Below, one piece after another: positions 35,017 through 44,591 of a stretch of DNA of 44,932 nt (the stretch's first letter is position 1; the number at the start of each line of letters is the position of its first letter). Under the pieces are notes generated by a model. It did no database searches. It worked only from the letters and a program-made list of their open reading frames with translations, and was not told the DNA's origin. The translations under genes and the position numbers were made by a program. The stretch is taken from the NCBI GenBank assembly GCA_035529935.1, contig DATKVT010000187.1:1-44932 (forward strand). Direction: 5' to 3'. Origin of the DNA: Williamwhitmania sp. GTDB taxonomy: Bacteria; Bacteroidota; Bacteroidia; Bacteroidales; Williamwhitmaniaceae.

Positions 35017-35424
35017 TTAGGGTTGCTTACACTTGGCAATGGCTTCCACCGTTTTAGCATCCCGTTTTGCCGCATCGGTAGCAAAAATGCCCGTGGAAAC
35101 GATCTTCCCATCTTTGTCGCGGTAGGCGTACTCATAAGGTCCATCGTTACGCTGTAGCAACAGGTATCCATCAATGGTTTCGGCCCAGTGGTGATGTTCG
35201 TCGCCGTAGAGCTTAATAGTAAGTGTATCGCCATTTGGTTGGGCATACTTTATGGGGTAGGGAGTGGCGGGAACCCTACTTGGACGCTGCTGCGATGTTT
35301 GTGCGGTTGGAGTTGCAGCTTTAGATTCAGAAGTTTTTGCTTTGGTGGTGGCACAGGCAGTAATAATTGCTAGTGAAATACCAGCAACAATTAGCGCCCC
35401 AGTTGTATGTCCAATATTTTTCAT
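35017..35424 (-). CDS. small lipoprotein with a domain resembling the propeptide of M6 metalloproteases
   Basis: This 135-residue lipoprotein has an N-terminal signal and lipobox ITAC with Cys24, followed by a low-complexity linker of Thr, Ser and Ala (about 25-48). The remaining domain (about 50-130) carries PYPIKYAQPNGDTLTI, the GDEHHHWAETIDGYLL segment and RNDGPYEYAYRDKDG. This pattern is found at the N-terminus of M6 (immune inhibitor A-like) metalloproteases of Bacteroidota, just before their catalytic domain. Here no protease domain follows (no HExxH). It may be a stand-alone propeptide-like domain acting as a protease inhibitor or chaperone, or the relic of a truncated protease. The function is unproven. 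Confidence 0.65.
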   Translation of the reverse strand: MKNIGHTTGALIVAGISLAIITACATTKAKTSESKAATPTAQTSQQRPSRVPATPYPIKYAQPNGDTLTIKLYGDEHHHWAETIDGYLLLQRNDGPYEYAYRDKDGKIVSTGIFATDAAKRDAKTVEAIAKCKQP

Positions 35425-35502: not shown

Positions 35503-37344
35503 CTAGTGTAGCACCAGGCTCTTTTCAACCACTGGCTTCACCACTTTTTTCTTTAGCTTTTCAGGTTTTTGAACATCAACAACCGCTTCTAGTAGTATCT
35601 CTGCTATGTCGGCTACCCTTGTGGTGGATTGGGCTGCAAATGTTTTTTTGCAGAGTGGGCAGGCGGTGGCTATAGTGTCAGGCTTGTTTATGGTGAGCGA
35701 TGCCAATGTTTTTTGCGTGATAACTGCTCGGCTTTCTGCTCCAATTACGGTAATGCCTAAGCTTCCGCCACAGCAAAGCGAATTACTCTTTTCGTTATTG
35801 GTTTTCACCAAGGTGCCCGTTCGACTGAGAAGCACGCGGGGCTGCTTATAGATATTGCTTCCTCGTCCTAGGTCGCAGGGGTCGTGGTAGGCTACCGTTG
35901 AGGTTCCCTTTTTAACTTGCAGTTTTTCTTCAACTATCAGCTGCAGCAAATATTCGCTGTGATGATATACTGGAATGGATAGTCGGTAATCTTCCTTAAA
36001 TGTCTTGTAGCAAATGGGGCAGGAGGTTACCAAATACTTTGCTCCAGACTTTGCAATAATTTCAGAGTTTTTGGATGCAAGGGCTGCCGCAGCCTCGCTG
36101 TTGCCTGCCAGTTTTAGGGGACGACCACAGCAGATGCTGCCATCGGAATCTATGAACGTAAAGTTAACATCGGCTTTGTGGAAAAGTTCCTTCATTGCGC
36201 CAATAGTGCTAGGGTTGAGGTGCCCCATGCATCCGGCGAAGTAAGCAACTTCTGCTTTTTTCACGGCAGGTGATTGCCCAACGTAGCAATAAGACGTTGC
36301 AGAAAACAGAGGACTTTCTTTGCGTTGGTTGAGCCTAATGGTTGTGTTTTCGATACCAACCGGACAAAGGTCGTTGCAACGACCACACATCATGCAGGTC
36401 TTTGTAATATCGGCCTGTGGATTATTGTCACGCAGCAGCTGGTTGAAGTATGCTGGTTGTATATTGCTAATGTTTAGGTCGCTGCTTAGCTGACATTTGT
36501 CGATGCAAATACCACATCGTGAGCAGGAGTTTATCTCAACCTGAGTGTAGGATGTATGCCGGTACTTCTCCTTGATTCCAAAACTCCGAAGGTATATAAG
36601 AAATACCTCGGTAAGGATGTGCATGTATCGGGTAAAGGGAACGGCTACAAAAAATAGCCCTAATGAGATGGAGTAGGCCCACCAGGTTGGGTAGCAGAGG
36701 TATTCGAGCGGGAGAAACTTGGCAAAAAAGTGACCGAGCGTGTTGGTAAGAAATCCACCTGTATCGTAAAGCCCAGCGTTGAAACTTTCGGCAAAAAGGC
36801 GAAGTGGAAAAATGAGCCACAGCGAAATTAAAGCAACCTTATCGATGGTTTTAAGGCGGGTAGTCTTCTTCATTCCAACTACCTTGCTCCTAAACCGTTT
36901 TATAACGGCTATGGCTACCCCCGAAAGAACAAAGAGTAGGAGAAAGTCCATGGCAAAGATAAAGAACTTCCGGTAGGGAAGCTGGCGAAGGTCGTGGACA
37001 AAGAACTCAAAAAAGATGGGGTAGTATGGTGCGTTAAGGTGCCCATGGCTATGCCAGCGAGCTTCAAGATTTCCGGCTACAATGAGTAGAAACCATCCAA
37101 AAGCCAAGCTCATGTGCATGTAGCCCAACCATGGGTTAATCCGGAATACTTTCCGGTGCAAAAGACTTTCAGAAAACACCTCACCAGTTGCGGTGACGGT
37201 TTTGTGGCTAAATAGTGCCCTCGAAAATATTCTTCGTTCCTGCTTTGTGAGCGCTTTGAACCAAATAGTCCACTTCGCAAATACGGTAAAGAGAACAAAT
37301 ACCATACCTCCTAAAAACGGCAGCACAAATGGGTCAAACTTCAT
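35503..37344 (-). CDS. membrane-bound cytochrome b / HdrD-like Fe-S oxidoreductase fusion
   Basis: This 613-residue protein has an N-terminal NarI/HdrE-type membrane part (about 1-250, five hydrophobic segments near 6-28, 74-91, 127-149, 168-186 and 222-240). Candidate haem-ligand His residues lie at 77 (GYMH) and 242 (RYMH). A dicluster 4Fe-4S segment has Cys274, 277, 280, 284 and Cys317, 320, 323, 327. Two CCG domains are present: Cys372, 405-406, 442 and 445; and Cys490, 524-525, 562 and 565. This combines DsrM-like and DsrK/HdrD-like modules in one chain. It should pass electrons between menaquinone and the soluble Hdr proteins. Its start overlaps the previous gene by 4 nt. Confidence 0.88.
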   Translation of the reverse strand: MKFDPFVLPFLGGMVFVLFTVFAKWTIWFKALTKQERRIFSRALFSHKTVTATGEVFSESLLHRKVFRINPWLGYMHMSLAFGWFLLIVAGNLEARWHSHGHLNAPYYPIFFEFFVHDLRQLPYRKFFIFAMDFLLLFVLSGVAIAVIKRFRSKVVGMKKTTRLKTIDKVALISLWLIFPLRLFAESFNAGLYDTGGFLTNTLGHFFAKFLPLEYLCYPTWWAYSISLGLFFVAVPFTRYMHILTEVFLIYLRSFGIKEKYRHTSYTQVEINSCSRCGICIDKCQLSSDLNISNIQPAYFNQLLRDNNPQADITKTCMMCGRCNDLCPVGIENTTIRLNQRKESPLFSATSYCYVGQSPAVKKAEVAYFAGCMGHLNPSTIGAMKELFHKADVNFTFIDSDGSICCGRPLKLAGNSEAAAALASKNSEIIAKSGAKYLVTSCPICYKTFKEDYRLSIPVYHHSEYLLQLIVEEKLQVKKGTSTVAYHDPCDLGRGSNIYKQPRVLLSRTGTLVKTNNEKSNSLCCGGSLGITVIGAESRAVITQKTLASLTINKPDTIATACPLCKKTFAAQSTTRVADIAEILLEAVVDVQKPEKLKKKVVKPVVEKSLVLH

Positions 37345-37688
37345 CGATGTATGGTTTGAACGTTTTCACGGATCAGCACAATAATATTCCGAGTGTTTAC
37401 ATTTCTCGGGCAAACGAGGGTGCACTTTCCACAGAGCATGCACTTGGCAGCCTCTTTAATGGAACTCTCTTCCTCGCCGCGACGAATTTGGTGTGTAAGG
37501 CTTCTGAAGCTGAAGTTGGTGAATTTGGCAGCGGTGCAGGTTGCTGCACAGGCACCACAAGCTATGCAAAGGTTAAAGGAGGGCTCATGCGCTGCAAGGT
37601 AGGAGGCAAGCTCCGTTTTTGCAGTGTCGAGGTCGAAGTTATTCGCCTTTACCGTTCCATAGCCAAAGTCCACCATGCTACTTCCCAT
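37341..37688 (-). CDS. small HdrC-like 4Fe-4S dicluster protein
   Basis: This 115-residue protein has two cubane motifs: CIACGACAATC (Cys41, 44, 47, 51) and CMLCGKCTLVCP (Cys83, 86, 89, 93). It lacks a membrane anchor and any flavin domain, so it is an electron-transfer linker. It overlaps the HdrA-like gene by 11 nt at the 5' end and the membrane subunit by 4 nt at the 3' end, so it is translationally coupled to both and probably sits between them in the complex. An internal ATG four codons on (37676) would remove the 5' overlap. Confidence 0.88.
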   Translation of the reverse strand: MGSSMVDFGYGTVKANNFDLDTAKTELASYLAAHEPSFNLCIACGACAATCTAAKFTNFSFRSLTHQIRRGEEESSIKEAAKCMLCGKCTLVCPRNVNTRNIIVLIRENVQTIHR

Positions 37689-38697
37689 TTAGGTAACCAT
37701 GAACCTGAAGCGCGGCCGAGCGAGCTTCGGTAATTGAATCGGTTATGTTGTTGGGGCCAGTGCAGGCACCGGCCACAAAAACGCCTTCAGTAGTCATTTG
37801 GGTAGAGGCCATATGAACGTCCTTCACCGGGGCAAAGCCATCCTCATTGGTTTTTAATCCAAGGCTATTAAGAATCTTGTCAGTTCCAACAGCAGGAGTC
37901 ATGCCAACCATGAGTACCACCATATCGGTGGAGAGTCGCATGGGCTTGGAGGCCAAGGTGTCCTCCACCTTTACGTTAACTCTGCCGTCTGGAGCTTCGC
38001 TGGTTTCGGACAGTCTACCCCTCACAAAGTTTATTCCCATTACCTGCGCCTCCTTGTAGAGCTGCTCGTAGCCGTGACCAAACATGCGCAAATCCATGTA
38101 GAAGCAAAAAACTTCGGCGGATGGAATGGCCTCCTTTACCTCAATTGCCTGCTTCACGGCAGTAACGCAGCATACTTTGGAACAGTAGGGCCGATTTACC
38201 TTTTCGTCGCGGGAGCCAACGCAGTGTATAAATGCTACCCGGTGAGGTGTCTTTCCGTTGGTCATGCGTGGTTTACCATAATCGGCAAACATCTTCTCCA
38301 GCTCGCCGGAGGTGATAACGTTCTCAAAAATCCTGTAGCCATACTCCTCCTTTTTCTCGGCCGGGAAGAGTTCAAACCCGGTAGTTAGCACCACTGCCCC
38401 TGCTTGGAATTGCTTGCTGTCGGCTGACTGAATAGTGAACGCGCCATTCTCCTTTTTGACGGAGGAGATGGAGGTGGAGGTGTAAACCGATACCTCGCCA
38501 TTCAGGGAGGATAACGCATTCTCAATTACCTCTTTTGCCGGGCGACGGGAGGGGAAGAGCCTATCCCAGTTTCGAACGTTGCCCCCCAATTCTGCGGCTC
38601 GTTCGAAAAGCATCACCTTGTAGCCCAACTTGCCCAGCTCCGCCGCGGTTTCAATTCCCGCAACGCCGCCACCGATTACTGCAACTGATTTGTCCAT
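37678..38697 (-). CDS. HdrA-like FAD oxidoreductase
   Basis: This 339-residue flavoprotein is homologous to the core of heterodisulfide reductase subunit A. The FAD-binding motif is GGGVAGIETA (9-18). The hallmark HdrA cluster motif HCVGSRD with YCSKVCC (Cys159, 172, 176, 177) is intact, and the second FAD-binding segment GVFVAGACTGP is near 305-314. Compared with archaeal HdrA (about 650 residues) it lacks the N-terminal and C-terminal ferredoxin domains, so it is the short form, similar in outline to QmoA. It has no visible extra electron input domain. It lies between hdrB and the small hdrC-like gene and should be the flavin centre of the complex. Confidence 0.9.
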   Translation of the reverse strand: MDKSVAVIGGGVAGIETAAELGKLGYKVMLFERAAELGGNVRNWDRLFPSRRPAKEVIENALSSLNGEVSVYTSTSISSVKKENGAFTIQSADSKQFQAGAVVLTTGFELFPAEKKEEYGYRIFENVITSGELEKMFADYGKPRMTNGKTPHRVAFIHCVGSRDEKVNRPYCSKVCCVTAVKQAIEVKEAIPSAEVFCFYMDLRMFGHGYEQLYKEAQVMGINFVRGRLSETSEAPDGRVNVKVEDTLASKPMRLSTDMVVLMVGMTPAVGTDKILNSLGLKTNEDGFAPVKDVHMASTQMTTEGVFVAGACTGPNNITDSITEARSAALQVHGYLNGK

Positions 38698-38709
38698 GTA
38701 TATGGGCTT

Positions 38710-39783
38710 CTACTTGTAAAACCTTAAATTCTTTGGAGATTCGGGTCTTCCCAAATCCTCATTATTTATGCCTTTAAACTTATCGTCGGGGTTGTATGCA
38801 ATACCCATTTTGTCGAGCAATGGGTCTACGGTTACCTGATGCATTTGCAGTCCCAGCTCCCAAGGGTCGAAGCCTAGAACCAGGCCGGCAACCTCCTCGT
38901 AGGTGAGGGATGGAATGCCGTAGCCATCTTGCCCGTAGGTTTTGCCCTCCATTTCTGCCAAGGCATATTGCCACCTATCGAGAAAGTATCCACATCCTGG
39001 GCAGTTGGAGATGATGAAGTCGGGCTTGAACGGCTCCATGGAGTCAAACTTCTTCTTGGAGGCCGAGAGGGAGTAACCTCGGTTGGCCTTTACCATGTAT
39101 TGCCGGAATCCGAAACCGCAGCAGTGTCTTCGCTCGGGATAGTCGATAACCTCGCCGCCCCAAGCCTCCACCATGCCTGCAAGCACATAAGGATATTCCG
39201 CGCCACCAACGCCCTTTGCTGGGAACATCTTGGCGTAGTGGCAGCCAATGTGATCCACCACCTTAAGGGGCTGGCCCGTGGCCTTGTTTATGAGCTTATA
39301 CTTTGCCTTTTGGGCTATCTCTTCTCTAAACTTAAAAATGATATCGCTGGTGTGGGCGAGGTTGTTGGGAGCCTTGAAATTTCTACCCGTGGCCCGCTTC
39401 AAGTTGTCATGAACTCGCTCTTCAACCTCTGGATGGTGCTCCCAGGTGTCGAGTATCTCCGTATAGAGCCCAAAAGAGGTAACGCACGATGGAACAAAGT
39501 TTCGGAAACCAGACTCCTTCATCAAGGCAAAATTTCTTCCTACTACGGTCATAATGGTTTCGAACGGAACCACCTCGCAGTGGTAAGCTATGCCGGTGCA
39601 GGTTGTGTGGTGCTGGTCGTCGTGCACGTTCTTCTTCAGCACCTCCCTCAGAATGCGTAGGAATGTTGATTCAGAGCCCGGAAAGAAATTTTGCCGGATG
39701 CAGCTACGAACGTAGTAGTAGTCATCCTCTGCGATCTCCTTCTGGTAGTCCTTCCAAATATTGCGCTTGCCCTCTATCTTCAT
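38710..39783 (-). CDS. HdrB-like heterodisulfide reductase subunit with altered N-terminal CCG motif
   Basis: This 357-residue HdrB-family protein has an intact second CCG domain: Cys181, then CCGFG at 221-222, then CPGC at 261 and 264, expected to hold one noncubane 4Fe-4S cluster. The first CCG domain is altered: it has single cysteines at 28, 62 (TCTG instead of CCG), 69 and 100 (CVTS instead of CxxC). In methanogen HdrB both domains bind noncubane clusters at the heterodisulfide site, so the proximal site here must differ. The start ATG overlaps hdrC by 4 nt (ATGA). Its likely substrate is not CoM-CoB, because bacteria of this type lack those thiols. Confidence 0.88.
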   Translation of the reverse strand: MKIEGKRNIWKDYQKEIAEDDYYYVRSCIRQNFFPGSESTFLRILREVLKKNVHDDQHHTTCTGIAYHCEVVPFETIMTVVGRNFALMKESGFRNFVPSCVTSFGLYTEILDTWEHHPEVEERVHDNLKRATGRNFKAPNNLAHTSDIIFKFREEIAQKAKYKLINKATGQPLKVVDHIGCHYAKMFPAKGVGGAEYPYVLAGMVEAWGGEVIDYPERRHCCGFGFRQYMVKANRGYSLSASKKKFDSMEPFKPDFIISNCPGCGYFLDRWQYALAEMEGKTYGQDGYGIPSLTYEEVAGLVLGFDPWELGLQMHQVTVDPLLDKMGIAYNPDDKFKGINNEDLGRPESPKNLRFYK

Positions 39784-40493
39784 TGCTTTGAATGCTTTTC
39801 CTGATTGTTGGTGTTGTAAACCTCCTTGAAGTATTCGCTATCCTTGCCCGTTCCAATTTCGAGCCCCATCTCCTTGGCCTTTTGCGCTGAGTAATCCTCA
39901 ATCTTGTTAAACCAATCGATGCCGCCGGTAACCTCAAAAATGCGGCGTAGCTCATCAAGGTCCTCCTGGGGAATGTTGCGCAACGCTCCAGGGCCGTCAC
40001 CCTTGTAGTTAGCACCTACTTTGGGTAGTATCTGTTCGGCATTTGCTCTTATCCAATCCCAGATAGGGCCTTGTTCTGGGTGCATATCGGTGTCGATATG
40101 GTCCATATAAACGCAGTAACCTGTTTCCAGAATAGACTCACCCACAGTGCGCTTAAGAGCCAGCTGCTGCCTTCCCTTTTCACTCTCCACAAAGTGGCCC
40201 AGCTCAATGGAGAGGCCGCGCAACGCCTGAATAATTAGTCCGGGTGCATTGTTTCGGGGGCAGCGTGTTTTACAGCTCATGCATTCACCGCAGTACCAAA
40301 TGGTTTCGCTCTTTAGCAGTGCCTCAATGGCCTTGTCGTCGCGCGACTGAACGGTGTCGGCAATAATGCGTGGCTGGTAGTCGTAAACCTCGGCTGCCGG
40401 ACAAATGGCTGTGCAGGTGCCACAGTTTATGCACGCTATAATGCCTTCGGTGAAGCGGACGTCCTCAATGAGCCTATCGTATAGTTGTCCCAT
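39780..40493 (-). CDS. HdrC-like 4Fe-4S dicluster protein
   Basis: This 237-residue soluble ferredoxin-type subunit has Cys21, 24, 27, 31 (CINCGTCTAIC) and Cys68, 71, 74, 78 (CGECMSCKTRC). These two cubane clusters would wire the HdrA-like flavin to HdrB. Length is like archaeal HdrC plus a helical C-terminal extension (about 90-235). It is the first gene of the five-gene operon, and its 249-nt upstream region (40494-40742) is divergent from the NA37 gene. A clear Bacteroidota -7 box was not found in that gap on this strand. Confidence 0.9.
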   Translation of the reverse strand: MGQLYDRLIEDVRFTEGIIACINCGTCTAICPAAEVYDYQPRIIADTVQSRDDKAIEALLKSETIWYCGECMSCKTRCPRNNAPGLIIQALRGLSIELGHFVESEKGRQQLALKRTVGESILETGYCVYMDHIDTDMHPEQGPIWDWIRANAEQILPKVGANYKGDGPGALRNIPQEDLDELRRIFEVTGGIDWFNKIEDYSAQKAKEMGLEIGTGKDSEYFKEVYNTNNQEKHSKQ

Positions 40494-44049: not shown

Positions 44050-44346
44050 TTATTCGTCCATTCGGTTTTCAATGTCCATTTTCTGGTGTAAAACTCTTAT
44101 TATTTCAACAATATTTCTTCTGGATTTCTTATAGAAGATAATATGCGACTTCACAATTGATGCTCTATATCCTTTTTTAATGTAGTCAACGGATTTTCCA
44201 CTTTCAAAGTTCTCAGATATAAATTCGATTTCGTCTAAAATTAGATTGTAGTATCTATCAGCTTGCTCAAGCGACCAATTTTCAAACGTGTACAACCATA
44301 TCTTTTCGATATCTTGATTTGCTTTCTCGCTAATTAAGTATTTCAT
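44050..44346 (-). CDS. parE: RelE/ParE family toxin
   Basis: This 98-residue small toxin has the RelE/ParE fold. The N-terminus KYLISEKANQDIEKIWLYTFENW is typical, followed by the helical hairpin with EQADRYYNLI, GYRASIVKSHIIFYKK (central beta-strands) and the VEIIRVLHQKMD end. ParE-type toxins usually poison DNA gyrase; RelE-type members cut mRNA. The sequence favours ParE (IIRVLHxxMD ending), but the target cannot be proven. It is the second gene of the pair and overlaps parD by 4 nt (ATGA-type). Confidence 0.9.
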   Translation of the reverse strand: MKYLISEKANQDIEKIWLYTFENWSLEQADRYYNLILDEIEFISENFESGKSVDYIKKGYRASIVKSHIIFYKKSRRNIVEIIRVLHQKMDIENRMDE

Positions 44347-44591
44347 TTCTTCACGTGTTTAGCATGAAGATTTTTAAGATTTTCTTTTCGGTCAAAGTCT
44401 TTAACAAACCCACTCTTCTCTCCAATTTCGAGTTCCTTAATCAACGCTTTATACCTATTTTCCTCATTCTCCAAAAGACGAAGAGCGGTTCTAATAACCT
44501 CACTAACCGATGAAAATTTTCCAGAAGAGATTTTCTCACTAACAAAGTTCTCGAAATATTCTCCTAGTAGTATTGATGTATTCTTTGCCAT
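44343..44591 (-). CDS. parD: ParD-like antitoxin
   Basis: This 82-residue protein has an N-terminal ribbon-helix-helix DNA-binding domain (TSILLGEYFENFVSEKI to SVSEVIRTALRLLEN, about 5-50) and a charged C-terminal tail (EIGEKSGFVKDFDRKENLK) that would wrap the toxin. It comes first on the minus strand, before the toxin, so the antidote is made first. It should repress its own promoter through the palindrome at 44613-44629. Confidence 0.9.
   Translation of the reverse strand: MAKNTSILLGEYFENFVSEKISSGKFSSVSEVIRTALRLLENEENRYKALIKELEIGEKSGFVKDFDRKENLKNLHAKHVKK

Follow-up and report, generated by a model that had tools for sequence, protein, structure and literature searches.

Genomic context points to an Hdr-type membrane complex as a possible sulfite source for sulfonolipid synthesis in anaerobic Bacteroidales

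Alistipes, Odoribacter, and related gut bacteria contain bioactive lipids called sulfonolipids. The enzymes that make them are known from phosphoserine onward, with published work on SulA (PMC9304779) and on the steps of cysteate synthase and ketocapnine reductase (PMC11211663). On the route from phosphoserine and sulfite through cysteate to 3-ketocapnine, sulfite is the sole redox-dependent input (ketocapnine is reduced by a pyridine-nucleotide short-chain dehydrogenase/reductase, SDR). The open-access papers we found do not discuss the source of sulfite in sulfonolipid makers without sulfate reduction, and none of them joins heterodisulfide reductase (Hdr) with sulfonolipids. The sHdr system is a precedent for sulfite made by Hdr-like proteins (PMC6067878, PMC11582611), and EtfD is a described Fe-S/heme b wire to menaquinone, with His78 and His241 as heme b ligands and CCG clusters that are non-catalytic owing to T539 and His583 (PMC13083937). 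Here we describe a five-gene Hdr-like set, C1-B-A-C2-DE (the complex), in a 44,932-nucleotide stretch of Williamwhitmania sp., an anaerobic bacterium of gut type (contig DATKVT010000187.1; the window). We consider it an evenly balanced proposition that this quinone-linked membrane complex supplies the sulfite from which anaerobic Bacteroidales make cysteate and, through it, sulfonolipids. Such a role would explain a widespread operon that lacks annotation and extend Hdr-like Fe-S enzymes to a new biosynthetic task, and a conserved complex that trades places with CysH would be a testable answer to the question of the sulfite source.

All window coordinates are on the minus strand. The gene order and spacing proposed in an earlier sequence-only reading are exact by open reading frame (ORF) coordinates: C1 and B overlap by 4 nt, B and A are 12 nt apart, A and C2 overlap by 11 nt, and C2 and DE overlap by 4 nt. 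Profile searches against Pfam and NCBIfam identified C1 and C2 as 4Fe-4S dicluster/HdrC-like proteins and DE as a Fer4_8 domain and two CCG domains after a transmembrane (TM) domain. All five subunits are Hdr-related, and none reached a curated equivalog cut-off. The features are as follows.

39780..40493, minus strand: C1, HdrC-like, 237 aa; two CX2CX2CX3C [4Fe-4S] motifs and an invariant C127; NF041779, E 1.5e-26
38710..39783, minus strand: B, HdrB-like, 357 aa; NF041780, E 7e-40
39475..39702, minus strand: degenerate N-terminal CCG site of B, residues 28-103; C28, C62, and C100 kept
38992..39243, minus strand: complete C-terminal CCG site of B, residues 181-264; C181, C221-C222, C261-x2-C264
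37678..38697, minus strand: A, HdrA FAD (TrxR-like) core only, 339 aa; NF040770, E 3e-86
38152..38223, minus strand: CX12CX3CC motif and K182 of A, residues 159-182; invariant in the family, K182 aligning with HdrA K409
37341..37688, minus strand: C2, small HdrC-like dicluster protein, 115 aa
35503..37344, minus strand: DE, membrane subunit with a cytochrome b-type TM domain, a dicluster domain, and two CCG domains, 613 aa
36583..37344, minus strand: TM region of DE, residues 1-254; five TM helices with invariant H63, H77, and H242
36364..36525, minus strand: two [4Fe-4S] motifs of DE, residues 274-327
35650..36231, minus strand: two complete five-Cys CCG sites of DE, residues 372-565

A scan of genome contigs, a check the sequence-only reading had suggested, returned 80 loci, nearly all titled Bacteroidales or Bacteroidota and one only 'uncultured bacterium', and nearly all had the order C1-B-A-C2-DE. 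With 120 further regions included, the exact order was present in 145 loci and a rearranged order, C1-C2-DE-B-A, in 4; the remaining fetched loci were mostly C1-B-only paralogues or were interrupted by contig ends. Because the operon is constant, the HdrA- and HdrB-type subunits belong together, as had been assumed. The nearest named relatives are Bacteroidales. B was found in 111 of 344 genomes sampled from this order, which is also that of the window, and the complex was essentially absent outside it in a class-wide sample of 295 genomes (strong match in three).

The partner of the complex had been called unknown, with no sulfur enzyme or other partner nearby. The second statement holds for the window itself, where the flanking genes (a monofunctional transglycosylase, a small putative lipoprotein gene, and an NA37-family gene) are unrelated. 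The conserved neighbors in relatives, which include cysteate and sulfonolipid genes, support neither statement. The recurrent co-directional neighbors are sulfur genes: cysteate synthase, CFAT, a ketocapnine-reductase-like (KCR-like) SDR, SulP, and methionine-gamma-lyase-like (MGL-like) enzymes. BirA, PurL, RsfS, FtsH, CarAB, and RecQ neighbors were judged by eye to be housekeeping genes and left aside. In about two dozen loci, cysteate synthase (TIGR03844, 476 bits vs a cut-off of 325) comes immediately after DE, and many of these loci have MarR before C1 and SulP downstream. In other families, at least four arrangements place the complex among CFAT, a divergent cysteate-synthase-like (CS-like) pyridoxal phosphate (PLP) enzyme, an SDR that may be the 3-ketocapnine reductase, and a glyoxalase-fold protein: CFAT-CS-like-C1BAC2DE (L106), CFAT-CS-like-C1BAC2DE-KCR-VOC (L105), CFAT-CS-like-KCR-VOC-C1C2DEBA (L107), and C1BAC2DE-CFAT (L240). 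The CS-like enzyme beside CFAT in these other clades scores about 108 bits with TIGR03844, and CFAT was identified by its match to the crystal structure of A. finegoldii SulA (7u7h, 636 bits, E 3e-190; 28eh, 596 bits). In the closest relatives of the window (L022, L025, L026, L027, and L028), MGL-like PLP enzymes follow DE. Genes of the cysteate synthase/CFAT clusters occur within about 5 kb of the complex in 15 of 135 non-redundant loci, compared to 1.2 expected (p 3e-12), and the B tree explains linkage to cysteate synthase with no fewer than 8 changes, of which well-supported branches force 6 or more. A glyoxalase/VOC-fold protein of ~355 aa is conserved in sulfonolipid clusters both with and without the complex (L107:10169-11239, L105:10402-11466, L230:8207-9262, L233:4153-5268, and L239:8564-9631).

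Co-occurrence was counted in the 344 Bacteroidales genomes, 242 of which have CFAT. The complex and CFAT are associated (both, 103; complex only, 8; CFAT only, 139; neither, 94; odds ratio [OR] 8.7, p 2e-11), as are CFAT and CysH (OR 12, p 4e-22), the latter as expected if sulfonolipid makers need sulfite. Within the CFAT-positive genomes, the complex and CysH avoid each other (both, 67; complex only, 36; CysH only, 120; neither, 19; OR 0.29, p 1.6e-4), also after removal of genomes with only the C1-B paralogue (OR 0.31, p 2.8e-4). Nine of the 10 CFAT-positive families that never carry CysH have the complex, compared to 26 of the 63 that always carry it (permutation p 5e-5), and sampling one genome per family gives a median OR of 0.30 (median p 0.024). 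CysH is absent from 8 of 9 sampled genomes in which the complex adjoins genes of the sulfonolipid cluster vs 28 of 94 others (p 8e-4).

The same complementarity is visible in gene order. Three complex-less genomes (G434, G361, and G527) have clusters ordered CS-like-CysH-CFAT; a fourth (G376) has CFAT-CysH-transporter-CS-like, and a fifth (G354) has CysH-CysD-CysN-anion symporter-CysQ-CS-like beside CFAT. The last order recurs in G455, with the complex elsewhere in the genome; profiles confirmed the families of the G455 genes and of the G434 CysH. CysH thus stands in place of the complex, and a sulfonolipid cluster contains one or the other, a CysH module or the Hdr genes, with one exception (G430) in which the complex is beside CFAT and CysH elsewhere. 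CysH, sometimes with CysDNQ and an anion symporter, was seen inside CFAT/CS-like clusters at L230, L231, L232, L229, L233, and L234. Cluster-embedded CysH suggests sulfate reduction dedicated to sulfonolipid rather than cysteine. No siroheme-type sulfite reductase (NIR_SIR, PF01077) was found in any of 12 genomes, including that of the window; in these genomes sulfite therefore does not lead to cysteine through such a reductase.

Residue conservation was computed over about 125-150 non-redundant sequences. Profiles bore out the dicluster, HdrB, HdrA core, and CCG domains that had been read from motifs, but in its N-terminal half B has a degenerate CCG signature: two of the five cysteines are lost in the family (HdrB Cys42 is T63 and Cys81 is S103). 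The C-terminal CCG site of B is fully kept, H68 is present in 98% of the family, and an AlphaFold model of B fits HdrB (5odc_B, TM-score 0.86 by target length). C1 and C2 retain all eight cluster cysteines. In A, C159, C172, C176, and C177 of the CX12CX3CC motif are invariant, as is K182, which lies on HdrA K409 in PDB alignments; sHdrA (6tjr) has Asn at that place. A is homologous to sHdrA over its full length (E 2e-89), and its match to HdrA covers the FAD core only, the N-terminal and ferredoxin-type domains being absent.

The predicted model of DE (pLDDT 90) matches EtfD (9ojn) over residues 1-592 (Z 26.3, 549 aligned), which agrees with the menaquinone-linked membrane electron-transfer complex first proposed for the locus; the TM part also matches NarI (Z 9.2). 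H63, H77, and H242 are invariant, and the eight dicluster cysteines and ten CCG cysteines are retained. EtfD has Thr in place of the second Cys in D1 and His within the CXXC of its first CCG domain; in DE, Cys and Ile replace these residues (T539 and His583 of EtfD), and C405-C406 and CPIC 442-445 are present, so both Hdr-type sites of DE look intact. Judged from the model, DE is an HdrE/HdrD-like fusion with an EtfD fold that retains both complete Hdr-type CCG sites.

Gene order, cofactor motifs, the EtfD fold of DE, co-localization with sulfonolipid genes, and complementarity with CysH are observed. That sulfite is the product, that the reaction runs in the oxidative direction, that menaquinone is the acceptor, and that the complex in the window acts like its orthologues are inferences. 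The reduced sulfur would be sulfide from Met/Cys lyases, or sulfane sulfur on a thiol or carrier, and its oxidation would take place at noncubane Fe-S (CCG) sites in B, in DE, or in both. Electrons would pass from C1 to the FAD of A, then to C2 and DE, and within DE from the 4Fe-4S clusters through heme b to menaquinone. Cysteate synthase would combine sulfite with O-phosphoserine to form cysteate, and CFAT/SulA would then begin the lipid. With sulfite/sulfide at about -116 mV and menaquinone at about -74 mV, the potentials are near enough for menaquinone to accept the electrons when sulfide or sulfane sulfur is oxidized to sulfite, and cysteate synthase and fumarate respiration would exert a pull on this reaction. 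MGL-like neighbors would supply sulfide or thiols and cysteate synthase would consume sulfite, and the linked genes thus flank the proposed step. A broader claim, which we hold more tentatively and rate somewhat below even, is that this is an oxygen- and sulfate-independent route to sulfite, in which an Hdr complex without a lipoate carrier oxidizes sulfide or sulfane sulfur for biosynthesis in strict anaerobes and can be exchanged for CysH in the Bacteroidales of gut and rumen that produce sulfonolipids.

Several observations count against a sulfite-supplying role. The product is read from genomic context and the direction could be reductive; K182 of A is a feature of bifurcating HdrA that is missing in sulfite-forming sHdrA. 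The genomes form a phylogenetically structured sample in which related genomes are not independent, and kinship was handled by family collapse only. CFAT is absent from the eight complex-only genomes, and among CFAT-positive genomes 67 carry both the complex and CysH while 19, some of them incomplete, carry neither. Co-occurrence of the complex with TIGR03844 alone is weak (OR 1.8, p 0.025), in part because the divergent CS-like enzyme adjoins CFAT in other clades. At the window's own locus, no sulfonolipid or sulfur gene adjoins the complex, and its genome (G000) has no TIGR03844 match and holds a CysH-like gene (152 bits, below the cut-off of 165); the complex there may therefore be redundant or different. 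This genome does have CFAT, but neither that locus nor the CysH-like one shows a link to the complex, and for the MGL-like enzyme it offers no more than a homologue of about 40% identity.

Among readings that keep sulfite supply, the main rival is a reductive route, in which the CCG sites cleave the S-S bond of thiosulfate or an S-sulfothiol (R-S-SO3-). Sulfite would be freed along with sulfide or a thiol, and menaquinol and/or ferredoxin would donate the electrons via the HdrA-like flavin. Disulfide reduction is Hdr chemistry, the bridging-Cys CCG sites are both kept in DE, unlike EtfD, A keeps the lysine of HdrA K409, and YeeE, TusA, and rhodanese genes lie near a C1-B paralogue (L167). Yet menaquinol is a weak donor for thiosulfate by textbook potentials, MGL-like neighbors give sulfide, which is the product of this route and not its substrate, and no thiosulfate transporter adjoins the five-gene complex; we consider the route improbable. 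A general menaquinone-linked electron hub (e.g., for ferredoxin or thiol oxidation), with the sulfonolipid correlation reflecting lineage or lifestyle, is the view of the sequence-only reading; it is unlikely but deserves more weight. It fits the EtfD-like membrane subunit, the absence of a sulfonolipid neighbor at most loci, and the many genomes with both the complex and CysH, but repeated physical linkage in varied arrangements and a CysH swap in the same cluster would not be expected, and the complementarity between the complex and CysH persists after family collapse.

Two further readings make the complex a member of a described Hdr class. A flavin-bifurcating HdrABC-like enzyme with no relation to sulfite, coupling ferredoxin with menaquinone and a thiol/disulfide couple, would account for the conserved CX12CX3CC motif and K182 of A; all HdrA ferredoxin domains are nevertheless missing from A, and no Mvh, Fdh, FrhB, or FlpD donor is found among the recurrent neighbors, which makes this reading very improbable. 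The least probable, by our estimate, is a genuine sHdr system for LbpA-dependent sulfur oxidation with a membrane-anchored B3-type subunit. The order C1-B-A-C2-(Fer4-CCG-CCG) does parallel hdrC1B1A-hyp-C2B2/B3 (PMC6067878, PMC11582611), and A is a full-length homologue of sHdrA. However, A has Lys where sHdrA has Asn, and in all of 12 genomes the only GcvH lies on another contig or far from the complex, which leaves no spare LbpA.

Other features were recorded around these loci. A putative lipoprotein of 135 aa without a Pfam match is encoded 78 bp downstream of DE (window 35017-35424, minus strand), with a counterpart at the same position in a congeneric genome (L122). At 44050-44591 (minus strand), overlapping small ORFs (98 and 82 aa) resemble a ParE/RelE-type toxin and a ParD-type antitoxin. 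C1-B-only paralogues (L123, L129, L141, L145, L165, L167, L171, L104, and others) lie near MGL-like, CoA-disulfide-reductase-like, Mrp, NifX, DUF134, and OsmC-like genes, and the one at L167 is also near TusA, YeeE-like, and rhodanese-like genes of sulfur trafficking. In the genome of the window, a separate cluster (L006:10251-16465, G000:C112) encodes FlpD, a pair of DsrE-like proteins, a pair of HdrA-like flavoproteins that resemble QmoA and QmoB, a small helix-turn-helix protein, and a cytochrome b subunit that is QmoC-like, even though this genome yielded no NIR_SIR sulfite reductase.

Among known systems, sHdr (hdrC1B1A-hyp-C2B2, or type II with B3), which forms sulfite from sulfane sulfur, shares the short A core, the C1-B-A-C2 order, and CCG subunits. 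The complex differs in its membrane-anchored cytochrome b fusion, K409-equivalent lysine, anaerobic Bacteroidales hosts, biosynthetic context, and lack of LbpA; sHdr membership was rejected on the GcvH result from the 12 genomes given above. Methanogen HdrABC (5odc) has the same HdrA FAD core with CX12CX3CC and K409, the HdrB fold, and HdrC; unlike it, the complex has an A without N-terminal and ferredoxin domains, a degenerate N-terminal noncubane site in B, additional C2 and DE subunits, and no hydrogenase or formate dehydrogenase. EtfD (9ojn), HdrDE, and DsrMK resemble DE in whole-length fold, heme b histidines, dicluster, and two CCG domains, but DE has CC and a bridging Cys in both CCG sites, unlike the non-catalytic EtfD (T539, H583). 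No ETF or Dsr partner genes were recognized among recurrent neighbors, and no genome-wide ETF search was made. A standard Qmo or Dsr identity, which the sequence-only reading had named as a possible refutation, was rejected on both counts: NIR_SIR, the DsrAB family, is missing from all 12 genomes, which excludes DsrMK and dissimilatory sulfite reduction, and QmoABC, although similar in its HdrA-like flavoproteins and quinone-linked cytochrome b, consists of QmoA, QmoB, and QmoC, whereas the complex has one A and a separate HdrB and coexists with the QmoABC-like cluster in the same genome. In the CysH-containing sulfonolipid clusters, CysH occupies the apparent place of the complex beside CFAT and cysteate synthase; unlike the complex, it is an unrelated protein, a PAPS/APS reductase that makes sulfite from activated sulfate.

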